Below are positions 1-6,609 of a stretch of 6,609 nucleotides of DNA, piece after piece (the stretch's first letter is position 1; each line of letters opens with the position of its first letter). Both the position numbers and the translations under genes were made by a program. This DNA is from Polaromonas sp. Lineage in GTDB: Bacteria; Pseudomonadota; Gammaproteobacteria; Burkholderiales; Burkholderiaceae_C. The notes under the pieces were generated by a model. The model did not search any database and was not told where the DNA came from. It worked only from the letters and a program-made list of their open reading frames with translations. The stretch lies in NCBI GenBank assembly GCA_014376885.1, contig JACMQR010000165.1:1-6609 (forward strand), read 5' to 3'.

Positions 1-359
1 AAGTCCTTGAGCCCGCCGGCATGGTCGAAATGCAGGTGGCCAATGAAAATCACATCGACATCGGCCGGCGTAAGCCCCAGGCGCGCCAGATGGCGGGGAA
101 TGCGCTGCTCATCACGCATCTCCGGCGCGCCGAACTCGAACACCGCCGGGTCGTAGTAACGGGCACTTGCCAACGGGTCGTTGATCTTGGCATGGTCGCA
201 ACCCACGTCGTAAAGGATGCGTCCGTTGGCCGTTTCAATCAGGTAGGCCAGGATGGGCGCTTCAATCTGCTGGCCGCGGCCGCGGTTGAAGGTCGAGATG
301 GACTTGTCGTAGCGATGCGTTGCGGTCAGCAAGGGCCATAATTTTTTGACTTGGGTCAT
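1..359 (-). CDS. Metallo-beta-lactamase-fold hydrolase, lactonase-like (partial)
   Basis: N-terminal 119 residues of a protein that runs off the window at position 1. The fold's first strands (ILAYLIETANGRILYDVG, 36-53) lead to the zinc motif HLHFDHAGG (108-116), i.e. HxHxDH. This layout, a ~100-residue lead and FDHAGG, resembles the AiiA/AttM-BlcC group of N-acyl homoserine lactone and gamma-butyrolactone lactonases rather than glyoxalase II, though other MBL hydrolases look alike at this end. The later zinc ligands and C-terminus are outside the window, so intactness is unknown. The ATG (359-357) overlaps the stop of the cysteine hydrolase gene as ATGA, so it belongs to the same operon and is probably translationally coupled. 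A third ring- or ester-opening hydrolase would fit a stepwise catabolic route; quorum quenching is an alternative role but is less suggested by the neighbours. Confidence 0.88.
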   Translation of the reverse strand, partial: MTQVKKLWPLLTATHRYDKSISTFNRGRGQQIEAPILAYLIETANGRILYDVGCDHAKINDPLASARYYDPAVFEFGAPEMRDEQRIPRHLARLGLTPADVDVIFIGHLHFDHAGGLKD

Positions 360-1033
360 GGGATTTCTCTGTGACTGGGCGCGCCGCGTAGCGCTTGCAG
401 CAATTGATCGGTGGTGGCCACACGGCCGAAAATCCCGCCCTCGACGCCGATCATGGCCAGCGCCGGCGCCTGCAAGGCGGGATCGCTCGCGGCAGTGGCA
501 TCGGCCACGGTGACGCAGGCATAGCCCCGGTCCACCGCTTCGCGCAGCGTCGAATGCACGCACACCTCGGTGGTGACGCCGCAGACGATCAGCCGGCGGA
601 TGCGGCGATCAGACAGCAGTTGCGCCAGTTCGGTCTGGTAGAACGCGCCATAGCCCGGCTTGTCAATCACGGATTCGCCCGCAGCCGGCTGCAACTCGTC
701 GATGAAGTCATGTCCATATTCGCCGCGCACCAGCAGGCGGCCCATCGGTCCGGCGCCGCCGATGGGCGCGCCGGCCTGCCGGCTGCGCTGCATTTTCTCG
801 GGCGGGCAATCGGACAGGTCGGGCCGGTGGCCTTCGCGCGTGTGCACAACCAGCAGGCCCGCGCCGCGTACGGCATCGAGCAGGCGGCGGATCTGACCGA
901 TGGGCCCGGCCAGGTGCGCCACATCGAGCCCAGCGCGCGCCGCGTAGCCATGCGGACTGCAAAAATCACGCTGCATGTCGATGACCAGCAGCGCCGTGCC
1001 GGCGACGCCATTCGGCCAGGCGGATGGGTTCAC
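356..1033 (-). CDS. Isochorismatase-like cysteine hydrolase (biuret/guanylurea hydrolase-like)
   Basis: 225-residue cytoplasmic amidohydrolase with the Asp-Lys-Cys triad of the family: D19 (LLVIDMQRDF), K125 (IDKPGYGAF) and C158 (GVTTEVCVHSTLREA), with the cis-peptide GVTT before the Cys. The stretch HTREGHRPDLSD (64-75), the Gly-rich GGAGPMGRLLVRGE (92-105) and EGGIFG (198-203) resemble biuret hydrolases more than RutB or true isochorismatases, as I remember them. From memory, guanylurea hydrolase (GuuH), which yields guanidine, is in the same subgroup. The start is chosen as GTG at 1033-1031, 13 nt after the creatininase stop; it gives a normal N-terminus. The Shine-Dalgarno is weak, and a GTG at 1129 (83 nt overlap) is the alternative. 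Stop overlaps the next start as ATGA. Family secure; guanylurea, biuret or another ureide/amidine as substrate is inference. Confidence 0.92.
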   Translation of the reverse strand: MNPSAWPNGVAGTALLVIDMQRDFCSPHGYAARAGLDVAHLAGPIGQIRRLLDAVRGAGLLVVHTREGHRPDLSDCPPEKMQRSRQAGAPIGGAGPMGRLLVRGEYGHDFIDELQPAAGESVIDKPGYGAFYQTELAQLLSDRRIRRLIVCGVTTEVCVHSTLREAVDRGYACVTVADATAASDPALQAPALAMIGVEGGIFGRVATTDQLLQALRGAPSHREIP

Positions 1034-1046
1034 GGCCAGCCCGGTT

Positions 1047-1811
1047 TCAGCGAAAGCCGGTGGCCACGGCCTGGGCAATGCGGTCTGCGACTTCGTGCGC
1101 CAGCAACCGGCCCTTGGCCGCGTCGGCACCGCGCGCCGACGACAGCACGCCCGAGGGCGGCACCCAGTCGCGGCGCGCGGGGTAGATGTCGTAGGACGGG
1201 AAATCGGCCGGTCCGTCGTCGGGAATCAGGTCCAGCCGCACCAGCGCCGGGTGGTAGTGCAGCATCATGGATGTCTCCATCACGGCCGCATGCTCTAGCG
1301 CAAAGCCCGGAAAACCCTCGGGGAACACATGCGCCAGCGTCTCGGGCGTCATGAAATCCCAGTATTCCAGCCGCATGACCTCCAGCGCAGCGCCGGGCCC
1401 GACATCGCGCAAGCCCAGGTCGATGCCTTCCACCAGGAACCACTGGTTTTCATAATGCCCGTTGAGCACCACCAGCCGGTTGACGCCGTGGCGCGCAAAC
1501 TCGCGCACGGCGTCGCGCACCGAGCCTATCAGCGTGGCCGCGTCGACGCTGGTGGTGCCGCAAAAATGCTGGCCGCCCCCGCACTTGGGCTGGGATTTGT
1601 AGCCGTACGACAAGGTAGGCGCCACCAGGCCGCCGACCCGGGCGGCCGCATCGGCGGCCACGGCGGCCGACAGCAGCCCGTCCGTGCCCAGCGGCAGGTG
1701 CGGGCCGTGCTGCTCCAGCGCGCCGACCGGCAGGAAAACCGGCGGCTTGTCCCCGGTCATGCGGGCCTGGTAATCGACCCACGACAATTCATTCATCCAG
1801 ACGGTGCTCAT
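1047..1811 (-). CDS. Creatininase-family amidohydrolase
   Basis: 254-residue cytoplasmic metal-dependent hydrolase. Creatininase opens the cyclic guanidine creatinine to creatine. From memory of the Pseudomonas enzyme, the likeness is close: GALEQHGPHLPLGTDG (30-45), SYGYKSQPKCGGGQHFCGTT (68-87) and VLNGHYENQWFLVEGIDL (115-132). Metal ligands are present as E33, H35, D44, H119 and E121 (equivalents of E34, H36, D45, H120, E122), and E173/H174 match E177/H178. W151 matches W154. The lid pair W174-D175 is replaced by F170-A171, so the substrate may differ from creatinine. Other family members open or cleave amides in mycofactocin and purine/pyrimidine chemistry. The start has a strong Shine-Dalgarno (AAGGAG, 5 nt) and overlaps the transporter stop by 4 nt. 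A cyclic-guanidine hydrolase fits the guanidine riboswitch upstream. Family secure; substrate open. Confidence 0.93.
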   Translation of the reverse strand: MSTVWMNELSWVDYQARMTGDKPPVFLPVGALEQHGPHLPLGTDGLLSAAVAADAAARVGGLVAPTLSYGYKSQPKCGGGQHFCGTTSVDAATLIGSVRDAVREFARHGVNRLVVLNGHYENQWFLVEGIDLGLRDVGPGAALEVMRLEYWDFMTPETLAHVFPEGFPGFALEHAAVMETSMMLHYHPALVRLDLIPDDGPADFPSYDIYPARRDWVPPSGVLSSARGADAAKGRLLAHEVADRIAQAVATGFR

Positions 1812-2731
1812 GTTGACTCCTTGGAAACAGTAACAAGTGGCAGGCTGGGCTCGCCCGCATCGGTGGCTTCGACCAGCGCGGCCAGGGCAATCAAGGCGCC
1901 GCCCAGCCATTCGACCGGCGACAACTGTTCGTTGCCAAGCCAAGTGGCGCTGAGCACCGCCACCAGCAACTCGGCCACCATGACGATGCCGGCGCGGCCG
2001 CTTTCCAGGTGGGTCACGCCGTACTGCCAGGTGGCCGTGGCCAGCAGCAGCCAGATGAAGCCATAGGCCAGTACCGCCAGCAGCACCGGTGCCGACACGG
2101 CCGGCACGGCGGCGCCCTGCCCGACCACGGCGGCCAGCGCCAGCACGCTGCAACCCAGGAAAACGGCTACCGTCTTGGAACGCAACGGAATTGCCTGCGC
2201 CGCGCGCGCAAGCAGGTTGTTGCCCGCAAACGCGAGGCCCGCCGACAGGGCCAGCCAGTCGGCCGTGCTGAGCGGCGACTGCAAGGCGCGCGCTCCGCCG
2301 ATCACGAACCACAAGCCGGTCAGCGCCAGCACGACCGCGATGATGCGCCGGGGGCGCACCTGCTCGCCCAGGAACAGCCAGCCTCCCAGAACCGACCAGA
2401 CCGGTGACAGGTAGAACAAAAACATCACGCGCACCACATCGCCCAGCATCAGCGCGCTGACAAACGACGTGTTGGCCCATCCGCCCACCAGCGCCAAGGC
2501 CAGCAGCAGACCGGTTTGCGAACGCCAGGCAGACCGCTCGCGCCACAGCAGCGGGACGGTGCACAGGCTGACCAGGCCATAGGCCAGCAGCGACAGAACC
2601 GGACCGGACAGGCCCATCGCGACGAACTGCTTGAGCGGCCACCATGACAGCCCCCAGAGCGACGAGGAAAACAGCAGCACAGCCACTGGCCAGGCGGCGG
2701 ATCGGGGTGATGAAAGGGGCGGGGACAGCAT
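1808..2731 (-). CDS. EamA-type drug/metabolite transporter (DMT superfamily)
   Basis: 307-residue inner-membrane protein with about ten hydrophobic helices arranged as two EamA repeats, roughly residues 14-146 and 157-287. The end of the first repeat is marked by FLGEQVRPRR (120-129) and the second by WLGNEQLSPVEWLGG (264-278), where family members place a conserved Glu before the last helix. A short polar tail follows. DMT members usually export amino acids, metabolites or toxic compounds; the small guanidinium exporters (Gdx/SugE) belong to the same superfamily but have four helices, so this is not one of them. The start ATG is 20 nt after the SDR stop, without an obvious Shine-Dalgarno. 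The stop overlaps the creatininase start as ATGA. In this operon it may export an intermediate or a guanidine product; import cannot be excluded. Confidence 0.92.
   Translation of the reverse strand: MLSPPLSSPRSAAWPVAVLLFSSSLWGLSWWPLKQFVAMGLSGPVLSLLAYGLVSLCTVPLLWRERSAWRSQTGLLLALALVGGWANTSFVSALMLGDVVRVMFLFYLSPVWSVLGGWLFLGEQVRPRRIIAVVLALTGLWFVIGGARALQSPLSTADWLALSAGLAFAGNNLLARAAQAIPLRSKTVAVFLGCSVLALAAVVGQGAAVPAVSAPVLLAVLAYGFIWLLLATATWQYGVTHLESGRAGIVMVAELLVAVLSATWLGNEQLSPVEWLGGALIALAALVEATDAGEPSLPLVTVSKEST
1817..1822 (-). promoter_or_regulatory. Ribosome binding site of the creatininase-family gene
   Basis: AAGGAG lies 5 nt upstream of the ATG at 1811-1809, inside the end of the transporter gene. 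It fixes the start there although the same frame stays open without a stop as far as 2783. Confidence 0.85.
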
Positions 2732-2751
2732 CAGGTGTTTGTCGATCTGGT

Positions 2752-3516
2752 TCAGCCCATGACCGAGCCGCCATTGGGGCCAAGCACCTGGCCGCAGTAA
2801 AAGCGCGACAGGTCCGAGGCTAGAAACAGCGCCGTCGCGGCGATCTCGTCAGCTTCGGCAATGCGTCGCTGCGGAATGTCCAGCTCCTTGGCCAGCCACT
2901 GCGGACTCATGGCTTCGAGCGACATCATCGCCGTGTTGACCGGCCCGGGTGCAATCGCATTGACACGGATCGCCGGGGCGAACTCACGCGCCAGCGAGCG
3001 CGTCAGGCCGATCACGCCGGCCTTGGCGGCGCAGTAAGGCGCGTACTGTTCGCGCCCCAGCACAGCCAGGTCAGAGGCGATGTTGATGATGACGCCGCGC
3101 CCCTGCGCCACCATGCCGGGCAAGAAGGCGCGCGCGGTCAGGAAGACCGACTTCAGGTCGACGGCCAGCATGCGGTCCCAGTCGTCCTCGGTGGTGTCGA
3201 GAAACGGTTTTTCCTGGATGATGCCGGCGTTGTTGACCAGCACATCGACGGCGCCGCACCGCTGCGCGGCCTCTGCCGCCAGGCGGGCCACATCGACCGA
3301 CCGGCTGACATCGGCCTCGATCGCCCAGGCCTGGGCGCCCAGGCTGTGGATCTCGCGCACAAGTGCATCGGCTTGGGCAGCGCGCCCCAGGTGGTTGACC
3401 ACCACGGCCGCACCGGCTTGCGCAAAGGCCAGCGCGATGGCGCGGCCAATACCGCTGCTGGCTCCGGTCACCAGCGCGCGGCGGCCGGACAAGGACAGTT
3501 CGAACGCCGCGGCCAT
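2752..3516 (-). CDS. Classical SDR oxidoreductase A (FabG-like)
   Basis: 254-residue classical SDR with TGASSGIG (17-24), NNAG (95-98), Ser148, and Tyr161/Lys165 in YCAAK. The residue after beta-2 is Asn (VVVNHLGR, N41), so the Asp that marks NAD preference is absent; NADP(H) use or mixed preference is more likely than in the neighbouring SDR. The tetrad Asn is replaced by Asp (AVDLKSVF, D120), a known variant in FabG-like members. The start ATG (3516-3514) overlaps the upstream TGA as TGATG, and GAGGTGA lies 7 nt upstream, so it is coupled to SDR B. The two SDRs share a fold and an ending (VMG at both C-termini) but differ widely between motifs, so they are paralogues in function rather than a recent duplication. 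Role: a second alcohol/carbonyl step; substrate unknown. Confidence 0.93.
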   Translation of the reverse strand: MAAAFELSLSGRRALVTGASSGIGRAIALAFAQAGAAVVVNHLGRAAQADALVREIHSLGAQAWAIEADVSRSVDVARLAAEAAQRCGAVDVLVNNAGIIQEKPFLDTTEDDWDRMLAVDLKSVFLTARAFLPGMVAQGRGVIINIASDLAVLGREQYAPYCAAKAGVIGLTRSLAREFAPAIRVNAIAPGPVNTAMMSLEAMSPQWLAKELDIPQRRIAEADEIAATALFLASDLSRFYCGQVLGPNGGSVMG

Positions 3517-4304
3517 CAGCCCATCACCTCGCCGTGGCTCATCACAATGGCCTGGCCGGTCAACGGCGCCGCATCGACGCTGGCCAGGAAAAGATAGATA
3601 CCGGCAATGTCGGCCGGCGCCAGCATGACCGGAACGGCCTGGCGCGACAGCAGTTCACGCTCAATCTCGGCTTCGCTGCGGCCTTGCTGCTGCGCCATGC
3701 GGGCCAGCGAGCGCAGCCCCGCCTCGGTGCGAATCCAGCCGGGGCAGACCGCGTTGACGCGGATGCCGCGCGCCGCCAGTTCAAACGCCAGCGAGCGCGT
3801 CAGGCCGATCACCGCGTGCTTGCTGGCCACGTAGGCCGAAAAGTCGGCCACGCCGGTCTTGCCCCAGATCGACGACTGGTTGATGACGCTGGCGCCGGCC
3901 GGCATCAGCGGCAGCAGAGCGCGCGTCAGACGCACCATGCTGACGACGTTGTTGTCAAGCAAGCTGGCCCAGCACGCCATGGCGTCGGGCGCGCGGCTGT
4001 CGATTGGGGTCGGGTATTCGCAGCCCGCGTTGTTGATGAGCACATCGACGCGAACTCCCTGCGCGTGCAGCCGCTCAGCCAGCAGCGCGACCTGGCCGTC
4101 GTCCCCGAGGTCGCACACGGCCGTGCCGACCCGGTCTGGCAAGGCCAGCGCCTGGGCCAGGCTTTGCAGGCTGCGCGCCTCGCGGTCGAGCAGCAGCAAG
4201 GTGGCGCCCTGGGAGGCGAACGCGTGCGCCAGCGCGCAGCCAATGCCGCCGCCTGCGCCGGTCAGGACCACGGTTTTACCCTCCAGGGCGTAGCGCGGTT
4301 TCAC
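3516..4304 (-). CDS. Classical SDR oxidoreductase B, probably NAD-dependent
   Basis: 262-residue short-chain dehydrogenase/reductase. Visible motifs: the nucleotide-binding glycine motif TGAGGGIG (15-22); an Asp after strand beta-2 (LLLLDRE, D40), which usually selects NAD(H) over NADP(H); NNAG (91-94); catalytic tetrad N119, S145, Y158 and K162 in YVASK; and the PGWIRT segment after the active site. The family interconverts alcohols and carbonyls in the cytoplasm. The start is GTG at 4304-4302, 1 nt after the TAG of the di-iron protein gene, with no clear Shine-Dalgarno, so translation is probably coupled. In context it could oxidise a hydroxyl made by the oxygenase-like protein. Substrate is not predictable; FabG-like or sugar/polyol dehydrogenase labels would be guesses. 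Confidence 0.93.
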   Translation of the reverse strand: MKPRYALEGKTVVLTGAGGGIGCALAHAFASQGATLLLLDREARSLQSLAQALALPDRVGTAVCDLGDDGQVALLAERLHAQGVRVDVLINNAGCEYPTPIDSRAPDAMACWASLLDNNVVSMVRLTRALLPLMPAGASVINQSSIWGKTGVADFSAYVASKHAVIGLTRSLAFELAARGIRVNAVCPGWIRTEAGLRSLARMAQQQGRSEAEIERELLSRQAVPVMLAPADIAGIYLFLASVDAAPLTGQAIVMSHGEVMG

Positions 4305-4305
4305 G

Positions 4306-5319
4306 CTAGACCGCTGTCAGGAAAGACACGCCGACCGCGCCCACAAAGCCGTGCGTGCGGCCGCTGGTGCCGGGAGCCTGGATCTGGCCGTAGTCGCTGG
4401 CCAGCACACGCCGGACGCGGTTGACGTGAAAACTGTGCAGTAGCTCGCGCACCGTGACAACCTGCGCGCAACTGTCGGGATAAAGCTCGCGATGAAAAGC
4501 CGGCAGGCGGTGCCAGGGTGCCGTGGGCCGCTCGTGGTGGGCGTTGTGAAAACCAAAGTTCAGCCAGACCAGGTTGAGCCACTTGCTGTTCAAGCCCACG
4601 ATGTCACTGTAGGTGTTGGCCTGCTCGTAGGCGCGGTCGCGCAGCTTGTCGGCGGGCACCGGCTGGTCGTCCAGAATCGGATAGGCGTCGTAGGTGTGCT
4701 GAAAGCAGTCGGCAAAGCGCAGCACGGTGACAAACACCAGGTAGGCCGCGAAGTACAGCAGCAGCGCCTTGACCGACCACCAGCCCAGCGCCGACAGCAG
4801 GCTCAGGCGAACGGCGGCAATAGCGAGCACGCGCGCCCGCGCCGCATGGCGGCGCTCGTCGCGAAAAGGCAGCACCACCACGAAGGCCCGCATCAAAAAC
4901 TCCTCCGCCGGGAAATACGCCCATTCCAGCGCCAGCACCGTGTTGCGAAACCAGGCCGGGGCGCGCAGCAAAAACCCGCGCACGTCAAACGTGATCACGT
5001 CGGCGCGCTCCACGTGGTGGCGCATGTGCTTGCGCCGCATGTCGGCAAACGTGGCGTAGCAGCTGCCGTTGAGCCAGCTCATCAAGGTGCCCCAGCGCTG
5101 GTTGGCCGCTGGCGTCCTGAAGATCGCCTGATGGGCAAATTCGTGAATGAAGTAGGCCGACCAGACCAGCGTCTGGGCCACCAGCAAAAAGCCCAGCGCG
5201 TTCAGGCTCCAGCGGGCCTGGCCCAGCAGCGCCACGCCGGCGCCGTAGCCCAGCAGCGTCAGACTCAGCGCGGCCACATTGGGCCACGCACCTTCGGGAT
5301 AGCGAAAAACCTGTTTCAT
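4306..5319 (-). CDS. Membrane di-iron fatty-acid desaturase/hydroxylase superfamily protein
   Basis: 337-residue integral membrane protein with the three histidine boxes of the non-haem di-iron desaturase/hydroxylase superfamily: HEFAH (59-63), HMRHH (98-102) and HNAHH (258-262). A further His at 208 (FQHTYD) could add a ligand. Hydrophobic segments at about 15-33, 40-58 and 164-200 place the boxes on the cytoplasmic face. Such enzymes use O2 and electrons from ferredoxin/NAD(P)H to desaturate or hydroxylate an unactivated C-H; relatives act on lipids, alkanes, carotenoids and, in the MocD group, small catabolic substrates. The short soluble parts and the catabolic neighbours argue against lipid desaturation. 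The gene sits 52 nt behind the binding protein and 1 nt ahead of an SDR gene. The start at 5319 has a GAAAGG Shine-Dalgarno. No ferredoxin or reductase gene is in view. The superfamily is clear; substrate and reaction are unknown. Confidence 0.9.
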   Translation of the reverse strand: MKQVFRYPEGAWPNVAALSLTLLGYGAGVALLGQARWSLNALGFLLVAQTLVWSAYFIHEFAHQAIFRTPAANQRWGTLMSWLNGSCYATFADMRRKHMRHHVERADVITFDVRGFLLRAPAWFRNTVLALEWAYFPAEEFLMRAFVVVLPFRDERRHAARARVLAIAAVRLSLLSALGWWSVKALLLYFAAYLVFVTVLRFADCFQHTYDAYPILDDQPVPADKLRDRAYEQANTYSDIVGLNSKWLNLVWLNFGFHNAHHERPTAPWHRLPAFHRELYPDSCAQVVTVRELLHSFHVNRVRRVLASDYGQIQAPGTSGRTHGFVGAVGVSFLTAV

Positions 5320-5326
5320 AAGGCAA

Positions 5327-5332
5327 CCTTTC
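5327..5332 (-). promoter_or_regulatory. Ribosome binding site of the di-iron membrane protein gene
   Basis: GAAAGG sits 7 nt upstream of the ATG at 5319-5317. It favours that start over an in-frame GTG at 5343, which would add eight residues. Confidence 0.7.
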
Positions 5333-5349
5333 GTTGATGGCACGGGCGC

Positions 5350-5365
5350 GCAGGCGAACGCCTGC
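5350..5365 (-). repeat. Intergenic hairpin between binding-protein and di-iron protein genes
   Basis: In the 52-nt gap the transcript reads GCAGGCG-TT-CGCCTGC, a perfect 7-bp inverted repeat (realistically 6 bp with a four-base loop). It starts 6 nt after the stop codon of the binding-protein gene. No U-run follows, so it is not a standard intrinsic terminator. A hairpin here could protect the 3' end of the upstream message or reduce read-through, keeping the binding protein in excess of the enzymes. The structure is seen; the role is inferred. Confidence 0.45.
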
Positions 5366-5371
5366 CGAGGT

Positions 5372-6409
5372 TCAGTTTTTGGTCAGCGCGGTGACGAACT
5401 GCGCGTCAAAGGTGGTGTCGATCGGCGGCACTGCGGTGATCTGGCCCTTGGCCTTGAGCAGCTGGCCAATGATCTCGCCGCTGGCGTAATAAGAGGTGGT
5501 TTCCTTGGCTTTGACGAAAGCCTTGGGCATTTCGGCCAGCGGAATGTTGTACACGCCGGAGAGTTGCTCCTTGACCTCCTTGGCCGAGACGCCCATGAAC
5601 TTGCCGATTATCTTGGCCGACTCGTCCGGCTTGGCCTTCATGTAGGCCAGGCCGTCCAGGTAGGCTTTCATGACACCGGCGATGTCCGCCGGCCTGGCCT
5701 TGATGGCCTTGTCGTCAAACACCAGCACGTCGGCAATCAGGCCAGGTGCATTTTTGGATGAAAACACCACCTTGAACTTCTTGCCCCCGCCCTGGCTGAG
5801 AATTTGCGACAAGCTGGGCTCGTAGGTCACGCCGATGGGCATCTGGCCCGAGGCCATTGCAGCCGGCACAGCCTCGGGCGTCATGTTGACCGCCACGATG
5901 TCCTTGTCGCTCAGGCCGTTGGTCTTAAGCGCGTACGACAGCAGAAAGTCCGACGGCGACAAGGGGTTGAAGCCGACCTTCTTGCCCTTGAAATCGCTCA
6001 CTTTGGTGATGCTGCTGTCGGCCACGATGGCATCGCCGCCGTTAGAGTAATCAATCGGCATCACCACCTTCAGCACCTTGCCGCCTGGCGCCTGGCCGAC
6101 CACCTGGTCAAAGGTCAGCATGCCGCCGTCCAGCGCCCCCCACGCCATGGCCGACGGAATCAGGGCCGGATCGGTGAATACCTGCAAGGACACCTTGAGG
6201 TTGTATTTCTTGTACAAATCGAGCGCATCGGCCACGTAGAAAGGACCGTAGCCGATCCAGACCACGGTGCCGACTTTCATGCTGGTCGGGCCGGCAGCGA
6301 ACGCCGAGGCGGCCGCGAGCGCCACCGCCAGACCCAGCGCGGGCTTGAACAAACGACCGAGCAACGAAGATGCAGCGTGGCGCGAAGGGGAAAAACCGGA
6401 TGATGTCAT
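5372..6409 (-). CDS. ABC transporter periplasmic substrate-binding protein (NMT1/SsuA/TauA-like)
   Basis: Predicted 345-residue periplasmic binding protein that delivers a small solute to an ABC importer. Residues 1-38 form a signal peptide: basic residues around R10-K22, a hydrophobic Ala/Leu/Val stretch at 23-36, and a probable type I cut after AFA at 36-38. The mature protein opens with the family pattern MKVGTVVWIGYGPFYVA (44-60), followed by a helix ending in LYKKYNLKV, as in nitrate/sulfonate/taurine and thiamine-precursor binding proteins. Family length is normal. The start at 6409 is chosen for its AGGAG Shine-Dalgarno; an in-frame ATG at 6460 is less likely. It is the first gene behind the guanidine-type riboswitch. 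Binding proteins of this class often accompany guanidine-I elements, so guanidine or a guanidino compound is the best ligand guess. No permease or ATPase gene is in the window. Family is secure; ligand is inferred. Confidence 0.93.
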   Translation of the reverse strand: MTSSGFSPSRHAASSLLGRLFKPALGLAVALAAASAFAAGPTSMKVGTVVWIGYGPFYVADALDLYKKYNLKVSLQVFTDPALIPSAMAWGALDGGMLTFDQVVGQAPGGKVLKVVMPIDYSNGGDAIVADSSITKVSDFKGKKVGFNPLSPSDFLLSYALKTNGLSDKDIVAVNMTPEAVPAAMASGQMPIGVTYEPSLSQILSQGGGKKFKVVFSSKNAPGLIADVLVFDDKAIKARPADIAGVMKAYLDGLAYMKAKPDESAKIIGKFMGVSAKEVKEQLSGVYNIPLAEMPKAFVKAKETTSYYASGEIIGQLLKAKGQITAVPPIDTTFDAQFVTALTKN

Positions 6410-6480
6410 GACAAAGCTCCTGAGGTAAGGGACGGGCGCAGGAAAATACGACTGGTACATCGTTCTCCCGGGCTTTTGTC
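6410..6480 (-). promoter_or_regulatory. Putative translational expression platform of the riboswitch
   Basis: Between the aptamer and the first gene there is no GC-rich stem followed by a U-run, so transcription termination is not obvious. However, the aptamer core segment GACAAAAGC (6480-6472) is complementary to GCTTTGTC (6417-6410), eight base pairs with one bulged A. GCTTTGTC is the spacer between the Shine-Dalgarno AGGAG (6421-6417) and the ATG at 6409, and it includes the last G of the Shine-Dalgarno. Folding the aptamer around ligand would use the core and leave the ribosome site free; without ligand the core could cover it. The complementarity is seen directly; the switching role is inference. 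Confidence 0.5.
6417..6421 (-). promoter_or_regulatory. Ribosome binding site of the substrate-binding protein gene
   Basis: AGGAG lies 7 nt upstream of the ATG at 6409-6407, an almost ideal arrangement. It decides the start over an in-frame ATG at 6460, which would add 17 residues ahead of the signal peptide. Confidence 0.85.
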
Positions 6481-6571
6481 CCTCCGTGGGGCCTCTTGCG
6501 AGGCCGGGGCACTCTCGGACCAGACGTCAGTCGAATCATTCCTCATTCGCCAACCGGAACCCTAGTGCCCC
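6464..6571 (-). promoter_or_regulatory. ykkC-class riboswitch, probably guanidine-I (subtype 1)
   Basis: The transcript (minus strand) carries the three signature blocks of the ykkC aptamer: CTAGGGTTCCG (6565-6555), CTGGTCCGAGAG (6523-6512) and GGGACAAAAGCCCGGGAGA (6482-6464), the last preceded by ACGGA. The pairing fits: P1 GGGGCAC (6571-6565) with GTGCCCC (6512-6506), a perfect 7 bp; P2 GTTGGCGAAT (6554-6545) with ATTCGACTGAC (6536-6526), with one bulged A and G-U pairs; P3 GGCCTC (6505-6500) with GAGGCC (6495-6490), closed by a GCAA tetraloop. ykkC subtype 1 binds free guanidinium and switches downstream genes on; subtypes 2a-2d sense ppGpp, PRPP or nucleotide diphosphates. I favour subtype 1 because the core matches the subtype-1 pattern as I remember it, and because an NMT1/SsuA-like binding-protein gene directly downstream is typical cargo of proteobacterial guanidine-I elements. 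The class is near certain; the ligand is likely but untested. Confidence 0.93.
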
Positions 6572-6609
6572 TACGTTTGAAGCATTTGCACCATGACTGC
6601 ACAAATCGC
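6572..6609. other. Upstream DNA with an imperfect dyad; promoter not resolved
   Basis: On the plus strand ATTTGCA (6584-6590) faces TGCACAAAT (6598-6606), an imperfect inverted repeat just upstream of the aptamer. The right half in the transcript direction reads ATGGTGCA, which resembles one half of an NtrC site, but the other half does not fit and no good sigma-54 -24/-12 pair follows. A weak sigma-70-like pair (TTGTGC, 17 nt, TTCAAA) is possible but scores only three of six in each box. The window ends here, so the promoter may lie wholly or partly outside. Confidence 0.2.

Follow-up and report, generated by a model that had tools for sequence, protein, structure and literature searches.

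A Guanidine-I riboswitch operon of Burkholderiales with a predicted oxidative release of guanidine from N-alkylated guanidines

What is a guanidine riboswitch controlling when the genes behind it encode a membrane oxygenase, dehydrogenases and hydrolases? The question is raised by a contig of Polaromonas sp. (JACMQR010000165.1, assembly GCA_014376885.1), whose 6,609 nucleotides, analysed at full length, are referred to here as the window. The original prediction had placed a ykkC/guanidine-I leader at the head of a tightly packed gene string, and both the leader and the packing were borne out: the Guanidine-I element was the sole RNA family above gathering thresholds in the window (cmscan with the curators' cut-offs), and eight genes follow it, the last being cut by the contig end (Table 1). 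From the riboswitch outward on the minus strand, the Pfam and NCBIfam assignments give an ATP-binding cassette (ABC) substrate-binding protein (SBP), an FA_desaturase-type membrane oxygenase (DES), two short-chain dehydrogenases/reductases (SDR1 and SDR2), an EamA transporter (EAM), a creatininase relative (CRN), an isochorismatase-type hydrolase (BIU) and a metallo-hydrolase (MBL), the gene ends of which, by the list of open reading frames (ORFs) and the sequence, overlap or almost touch (SDR1/SDR2 by 1 base, EamA/creatininase by 4, hydrolase/MBL by 4). Judged from the sequence, the window covers the front of a Guanidine-I-headed operon conserved in Burkholderiales. This operon probably frees guanidine from N-alkylated guanidines oxidatively, through DES and a lyase homologous to MgdL, and would thereby feed the carboxylase pathway.

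A DES scan of genome contigs gave 102 confirmed places, the best 80 of which (loci L005-L084) were compared. Upstream counts refer to the 74 loci in which 1500 or more bases precede DES (6 of the 80 dropped), downstream counts to the 60 loci in which 6000 or more bases follow it (20 shorter ones dropped), and protein comparisons to the copies passing length and identity filters (81 for DES, 60 for CRN, 63 for BIU and 53 for the MgdL homologue, MGDL). The same gene order recurs in the 80 loci, nearly all of them Burkholderiales by record title, with Polaromonas, Rhodoferax, Hydrogenophaga, Aquabacterium and Noviherbaspirillum among the genera besides others, and the arrangement is therefore more than chance. 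The order behind ykkC subtype 1, sought in other genomes, was thus recovered: the Guanidine-I element stands directly upstream of the SBP gene in 71/74 loci (68 by motif; L019, L021 and L026 by Rfam), and the SBP gene precedes the oxygenase in all 74. As to the remaining three, the element of L031 heads ABC genes plus SBP, and L067 and L077 are without it, L067 having a Guanidine-II element elsewhere. Downstream of DES, MGDL was present in 58 of the 60 loci, BIU and EAM in 53 each, CRN and SDR2 in 50 each, SDR1 in 46 and MBL in 42, the commonest orders being the full set (25 loci) and the full set minus MBL (17 loci).

The window is an entire contig (C347) of a mixed, 78%-complete bin of 401 contigs, so the absence of a gene from it says nothing on the content of the operon. 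Of the usual cargo of such leaders, which had been reported as absent, the carboxylase and deiminase genes were sought in the relatives, and their absence proved to be an effect of contig truncation: guanidine carboxylase or deiminase (CgdAB) genes were found in the flanks of 33/80 loci, L005 among their carriers. In L005 (Polaromonas sp. CG_9.7), the nearest relative, with 90.5% DNA identity along almost the entire window, the continuation past position 1 could be followed directly downstream, where the remaining part of MBL, the MGDL ORF, a second Guanidine-I element (by motif), the ABC permease, the ATPase, CgdA/B and guanidine carboxylase are located. A second Guanidine-I element, heading ABC permease and ATPase genes, also exists in the bin, on contig C199 (G000, L085); joining C199 to the window was ruled out, because the two are just 83-86% identical over the shared part and represent two strains mixed in the bin. 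The final 264 bases of C199 are reversed.

The gene that appears, from sequence comparison, to be the decisive one of the operon lies outside the window, which ends before it. The MGDL ORF directly follows MBL or, in loci lacking MBL, follows BIU, and the two loci that lack it, L067 and L077, are the same two that lack the Guanidine-I element. MgdL of Vreelandella boliviensis, published in 2025, is an N-(hydroxymethyl)guanidine lyase modelled as a beta-barrel, whose catalytic residues D49 and R51 have been demonstrated by mutagenesis, and MgdH of the same organism is a 2-oxoglutarate (2OG) dioxygenase hydroxylating methylguanidine (PMC12508155). The protein P0134 (source name Vreelandella boliviensis) and the L005 copy of MGDL share 31% identity (pair E 8e-21), and an hhalign comparison of 38 operon-type with 2 halophile-type sequences returned 99.9% at E 8.2e-33. 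The catalytic Asp and Arg, found at positions 49 and 51 in P0134 and L098, are kept in 35/35 readable rows of 36 in the MGDL alignment, and the full frame of the remaining row has both. Of two MGDL copies compared with Pfam, neither had a family, nor did the single copy compared with NCBIfam; among 120 MGDL relatives listed, 1 has a precomputed PF16815, and the V. boliviensis entry is named DUF3445 in one source. The predicted structure is beta-rich and barrel-like (pLDDT 90.9), and a fold search with this model gave no match at E ≤0.001, with lipocalin-like entries ranking near the top.

In a class sample, MGDL relatives occurred in 7/369 genomes, which yielded L096 and L098, both in the published order of ABC, CgdAB, Guanidine-II, guanidine carboxylase, 2OG dioxygenase and MGDL relative, with the Guanidine-II switch preceding the carboxylase; L098 additionally has a Guanidine-I element at the head, like the published V. 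boliviensis operon. Loci L005-L084 gave no match to an MgdH-type 2OG dioxygenase (blast with the L098 dioxygenase as reference, E 1e-6). MgdL-like proteins of one genus were also seen away from guanidine genes (L122, L123 and L124), the catalytic Asp being replaced by His in L124.

The oxygenase itself belongs to the membrane FA_desaturase/AlkB superfamily by its PF00487 score and conserved histidine boxes, with a nine-histidine set in the sequence. Its fold and histidine set are like those of AlkB and other integral-membrane di-iron hydroxylases and desaturases; unlike AlkB-type enzymes, it stands in a guanidine-riboswitch context, and a sequence search of solved structures gave no significant relative, only a single chance match (E 0.62). 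In 250 genomes of the family, DES and MgdL were found in 10 and 12, respectively, and 9 were shared (P 2.4e-13, uncorrected for kinship). In other families, a Guanidine-II switch directly precedes DES in L114, L115 and L119, and DES is located inside a Guanidine-I operon in L113 and L095.

According to the proposed mechanism, DES would hydroxylate the carbon adjoining a guanidino nitrogen of an organic guanidine, in place of the 2OG dioxygenase MgdH, and the MgdL homologue would split the hemiaminal product into guanidine and an aldehyde. The released guanidine would induce the operon and then be consumed by guanidine carboxylase and CgdAB, thereby serving as a nitrogen source. For the oxygenase-lyase core, methylguanidine is the likeliest substrate by analogy, given the specificity of the characterised MgdL for N-(hydroxymethyl)guanidine. 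Guanidine rather than the operon's own substrate is the likely inducer, because the V. boliviensis Guanidine-I element did not bind methylguanidine (PMC12508155). The sequence itself demonstrates the riboswitch and the gene order, the homology to MgdL with its Asp/Arg, the nine histidines of the oxygenase, the guanylurea-hydrolase type of BIU and the neighbouring carboxylase genes of relatives. The organic-guanidine route of the original prediction holds in part, as to a conserved riboswitch operon, oxidation first and guanidine as the presumable product and likely inducer, with lactam hydrolysis and lactone opening as putative steps; the decisive gene had not been among those it could consider.

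The likeness to the MgdH-MgdL system of V. boliviensis (PMC12508155) consists in the guanidine riboswitch, the MgdL homologue with D49/R51 and the adjoining ABC, CgdAB and guanidine carboxylase genes. Unlike that system, the 80 loci have a membrane FA_desaturase-fold enzyme instead of an MgdH-type dioxygenase, and the operon adds the SDRs, the creatininase sister, the guanylurea-hydrolase-type hydrolase, MBL and EamA. Of the guanidine carboxylase pathway (Gca, CgdAB, AtzF), the Gca and CgdAB genes, the two looked for, adjoin the operon in many relatives; unlike this pathway, the operon of the window would supply guanidine and not degrade it.

BIU had been called biuret/guanylurea hydrolase-like, and only the guanylurea half of this description survives. 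In the isochorismatase-like family, it is 61.6% identical over 211 columns to the guanylurea hydrolase of P. mendocina MET, as compared with 50.7% to the biuret hydrolase 6xjm and 47.8% to BiuH, and it has the catalytic triad as in the MET enzyme and, in common with it, Glu215 and Tyr145 (BiuH numbering). Biuret hydrolase was rejected, with NF050097 at 260.8 bits against a cut-off of 370 and with Glu and Tyr replacing Gln215 and Lys145. Among the 63 BIU copies, Gln215 of BiuH is Glu in 60/60 readable ones, and the Lys145 position is Tyr in 61 and Phe in 1. Biuret is bound in BiuH by Gln215, and KM increases over 25-fold in the Q215E variant (PMC5806882); however, Glu215 alone is not decisive for the specificity of BIU, because the Gln-to-Glu exchange in the related triuret hydrolase reduced the activity on triuret but raised biuret reactivity tenfold (PMC7948467). 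The pMET-2 enzyme has been described as a guanylurea hydrolase, active at 11 umol/min/mg and very little on biuret (PMC9800807). Unlike this MET enzyme, BIU is encoded together with an oxygenase in a riboswitch operon, and at the position of Asp173, shared by MET and BiuH, it has Glu. Of the four best-placed plasmid relatives of BIU, three come from plasmids of metformin/guanylurea-degrading Pseudomonas and one from a Nitrosospira plasmid; the plasmid gene between nucleoside deaminase and ABC genes fits the published description of the guanylurea hydrolase, and the gene name BB_00025 presumably corresponds to the locus tag of the gene compared with BIU. On two of the plasmid loci (L101:5552-9260 and L103:2552-6260), the guanylurea hydrolase gene is accompanied by genes of its own for a binding protein, a permease, an ATPase and a nucleoside deaminase, with an IS66 transposase nearby.

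In the proposed pathway, BIU would cleave an N-acylguanidine, and this activity is at the centre of the alternative that survives best, in which the release of guanidine is hydrolytic: DES and the SDRs would oxidise a side-chain carbon to a carbonyl, BIU would cut the resulting N-acylguanidine into guanidine and an acid, and MgdL would clear a side product. The closeness of BIU to guanylurea hydrolase speaks for such a division of labour, as does the presence of both SDRs in 46/60 loci, but BIU is missing from 7/60 loci as against 2 for MgdL, which accompanies DES downstream more constantly here than any other gene, and we consider this alternative unlikely.

Creatone, the keto form, belongs to the steps of the creatinine path. 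A bolder and quite doubtful proposal is that the operon oxidatively degrades creatinine or another cyclic guanidine of its kind, as the enzymatic counterpart of the known chemical oxidation of creatinine via creatol to methylguanidine (PMC3775425). DES would hydroxylate a ring carbon, an SDR would oxidise it, CRN would open the ring and BIU would cleave the acylguanidine to methylguanidine, which would finally be demethylated to guanidine by the oxygenase-lyase pair; the SDR-CRN-BIU set would fit such a route through the keto form. If this were true, the creatinine route would be a biological source of guanidine. In the preferred oxidative release from N-alkylated guanidines, the SDR and creatininase-sister pair would be an optional extra, serving a guanidine of cyclic or lactam type.

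The creatininase-like character of CRN was upheld for the family and not for the substrate pocket. CRN scores above the TIGR04448 equivalog cut-off (Table 1), its metal ligands are kept in 60/60 copies, and like creatininase (1j2t, 1q3k) it keeps W154 and H178 in 60/60 copies and Y121 in 59/60. Unlike creatininase, all 60 copies have W174 replaced by Phe or Tyr, D175 by Ala and S78 by Cys relative to 1j2t, three residues which we take to belong to the substrate pocket. A plain creatininase was rejected for this reason. The ordinary use of creatinine, in which a true creatininase would convert creatinine to creatine and onward and the oxygenase would be unrelated, is very improbable in spite of the family score, the identity to 1j2t and the intact metal ligands: the pocket is altered throughout, and CRN is absent from 10/60 loci, 9 of which retain MgdL and BIU. 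SDR2 and CRN were jointly present (50) or jointly absent (10) in all 60 loci.

Several observations weigh against oxidative release as the function of the operon. Its activity and induction are predictions from the sequence; the homology of the operon lyase to MgdL amounts to only about 31%; and methylguanidine as the only substrate would leave SDR1, SDR2, CRN, BIU and MBL unexplained. The SDR2-CRN link comprises only 5 supported independent pairs on the DES tree (median p 0.0625), and L113 has CRN without any SDR, so that strict SDR-CRN coupling was discarded as a tested result. The family sample overlaps the 80 loci (e.g., G517 and L067) and is not fully independent, 3/12 of its MgdL-bearing genomes are without DES, and a stop interrupts the MgdL match in G568 and G595. 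In the class sample, MgdL was found in just 4/12 DES genomes (G000, G107, G213 and G241), on a contig different from that of DES in G000 and G213; a universal pairing across the class was thus rejected, and outside Burkholderiales the pairing is weak, DES being accompanied there by MBL, EamA and a PF01261 TIM-barrel protein. Superfamily membership does not imply the substrate, since some DES relatives (L118, L120, L129 and, at 35%, Gloeothece) have no guanidine context.

The other features are collected in Table 1. For SBP, the most likely start is ATG 6409, with AGGAG at 6421-6417, rather than the ORF opening at 6460, and for BIU the likely start is GTG 1033, its ORF opening at 1129. A loose Ser-Tyr-x3-Lys pattern was found in 59/59 SDR1 and 67/67 SDR2 copies checked. 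The putative lactonase, MBL, is missing from 18/60 loci, and its full-length relative L005:6315-7121 is under both NCBIfam cut-offs (AiiA, 141.3 of 375 bits; 4-pyridoxolactonase, 137.5 of 325). MBL and EamA have no step assigned in the proposed pathway.

Table 1. Features of the window, listed from the riboswitch outward
Feature	Positions	Strand	Evidence
Guanidine-I (ykkC subtype 1) riboswitch aptamer	6463..6576	-	Rfam RF00442, 77.4 bits, gathering 63, E 4.9e-13
SBP, ABC substrate-binding protein, NMT1/SsuA type	5372..6409	-	PF09084 80.1 bits; TIGR01728 105.1 bits, under cut-off 163.5
DES, integral-membrane di-iron oxygenase of the FA_desaturase superfamily, predicted to hydroxylate guanidine compounds	4306..5319	-	
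SDR1, short-chain dehydrogenase/reductase	3516..4304	-	PF13561
SDR2, short-chain dehydrogenase/reductase	2752..3516	-	PF13561
EAM, EamA-family transporter	1808..2731	-	PF00892
CRN, creatininase sister, altered substrate pocket	1047..1811	-	TIGR04448 358.9 bits (cut-off 235); 49.0% identity to 1j2t
BIU, isochorismatase-type cysteine hydrolase, guanylurea-hydrolase kind	356..1033	-	61.6% to assayed P. mendocina MET enzyme
MBL, AiiA/4-pyridoxolactonase-like metallo-hydrolase, N-terminal 119 residues, runs off contig end	3..359	-	PF00753

Some neighbourhoods of DES relatives may be recorded separately. In other families, a TIM-barrel protein (PF01261, about 280 residues) is encoded beside or near DES in L114:6438-7286(-), L117:9800-10642, L119:7581-8417(-), L116:5780-6664 and L115:5554-6393(-), and possibly replaces or complements MgdL. 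Distant creatininase-family and glutamine-synthetase-like proteins are encoded near guanidine-type uptake genes at L119:9465-11622(-) and L117:11766-13947, and L084:4214-5575(-) resembles, by appearance, a further copy of the glutamine-synthetase-like protein. Second oxygenase copies within one genome are located at L084:13559-14560 and L129:8643-9635, the latter away from any guanidine riboswitch. On plasmids, DES gave one match, in Gloeothece, with a natural-product-like neighbourhood: the 35%-identical relative L104:4809-5912 (Gloeothece verrucosa plasmid) is beside an annotated ectoine synthase, GNAT and tryptophan halogenase.

It is extremely improbable that DES is a lipid desaturase in an operon for tolerance to guanidinium and not for catabolism, as the Pfam name FA_desaturase and the guanidine exporters found under guanidine riboswitches in many bacteria (PMC12508155) might suggest. 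In the literature searched, on guanidine riboswitches with creatininase, creatinine, desaturase or methylguanidine hydroxylase and on carboxyguanidine deiminase, the operon was not described, which does not prove its absence from print, and no DES-type oxygenase class for guanidines was found there. The desaturase of PMC12186494 and PMC11410670 is the arginine desaturase NapI and not DES, and that of PMC2211319 stands there in the context of a cobalamin and not a guanidine riboswitch.

If oxidative release by DES and the MgdL homologue is the function of the operon, it would add a source of guanidine and, with a membrane di-iron enzyme whose substrate is a small cationic guanidine, a new class of oxygenase, and the published MgdL lyase would be re-used beside a non-homologous oxygenase. 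A function is thereby suggested for proteins now labelled as fatty acid desaturase and hypothetical protein, and the origin of guanidine becomes testable in named isolates, Hydrogenophaga flava NBRC 102514 (L057) among them.

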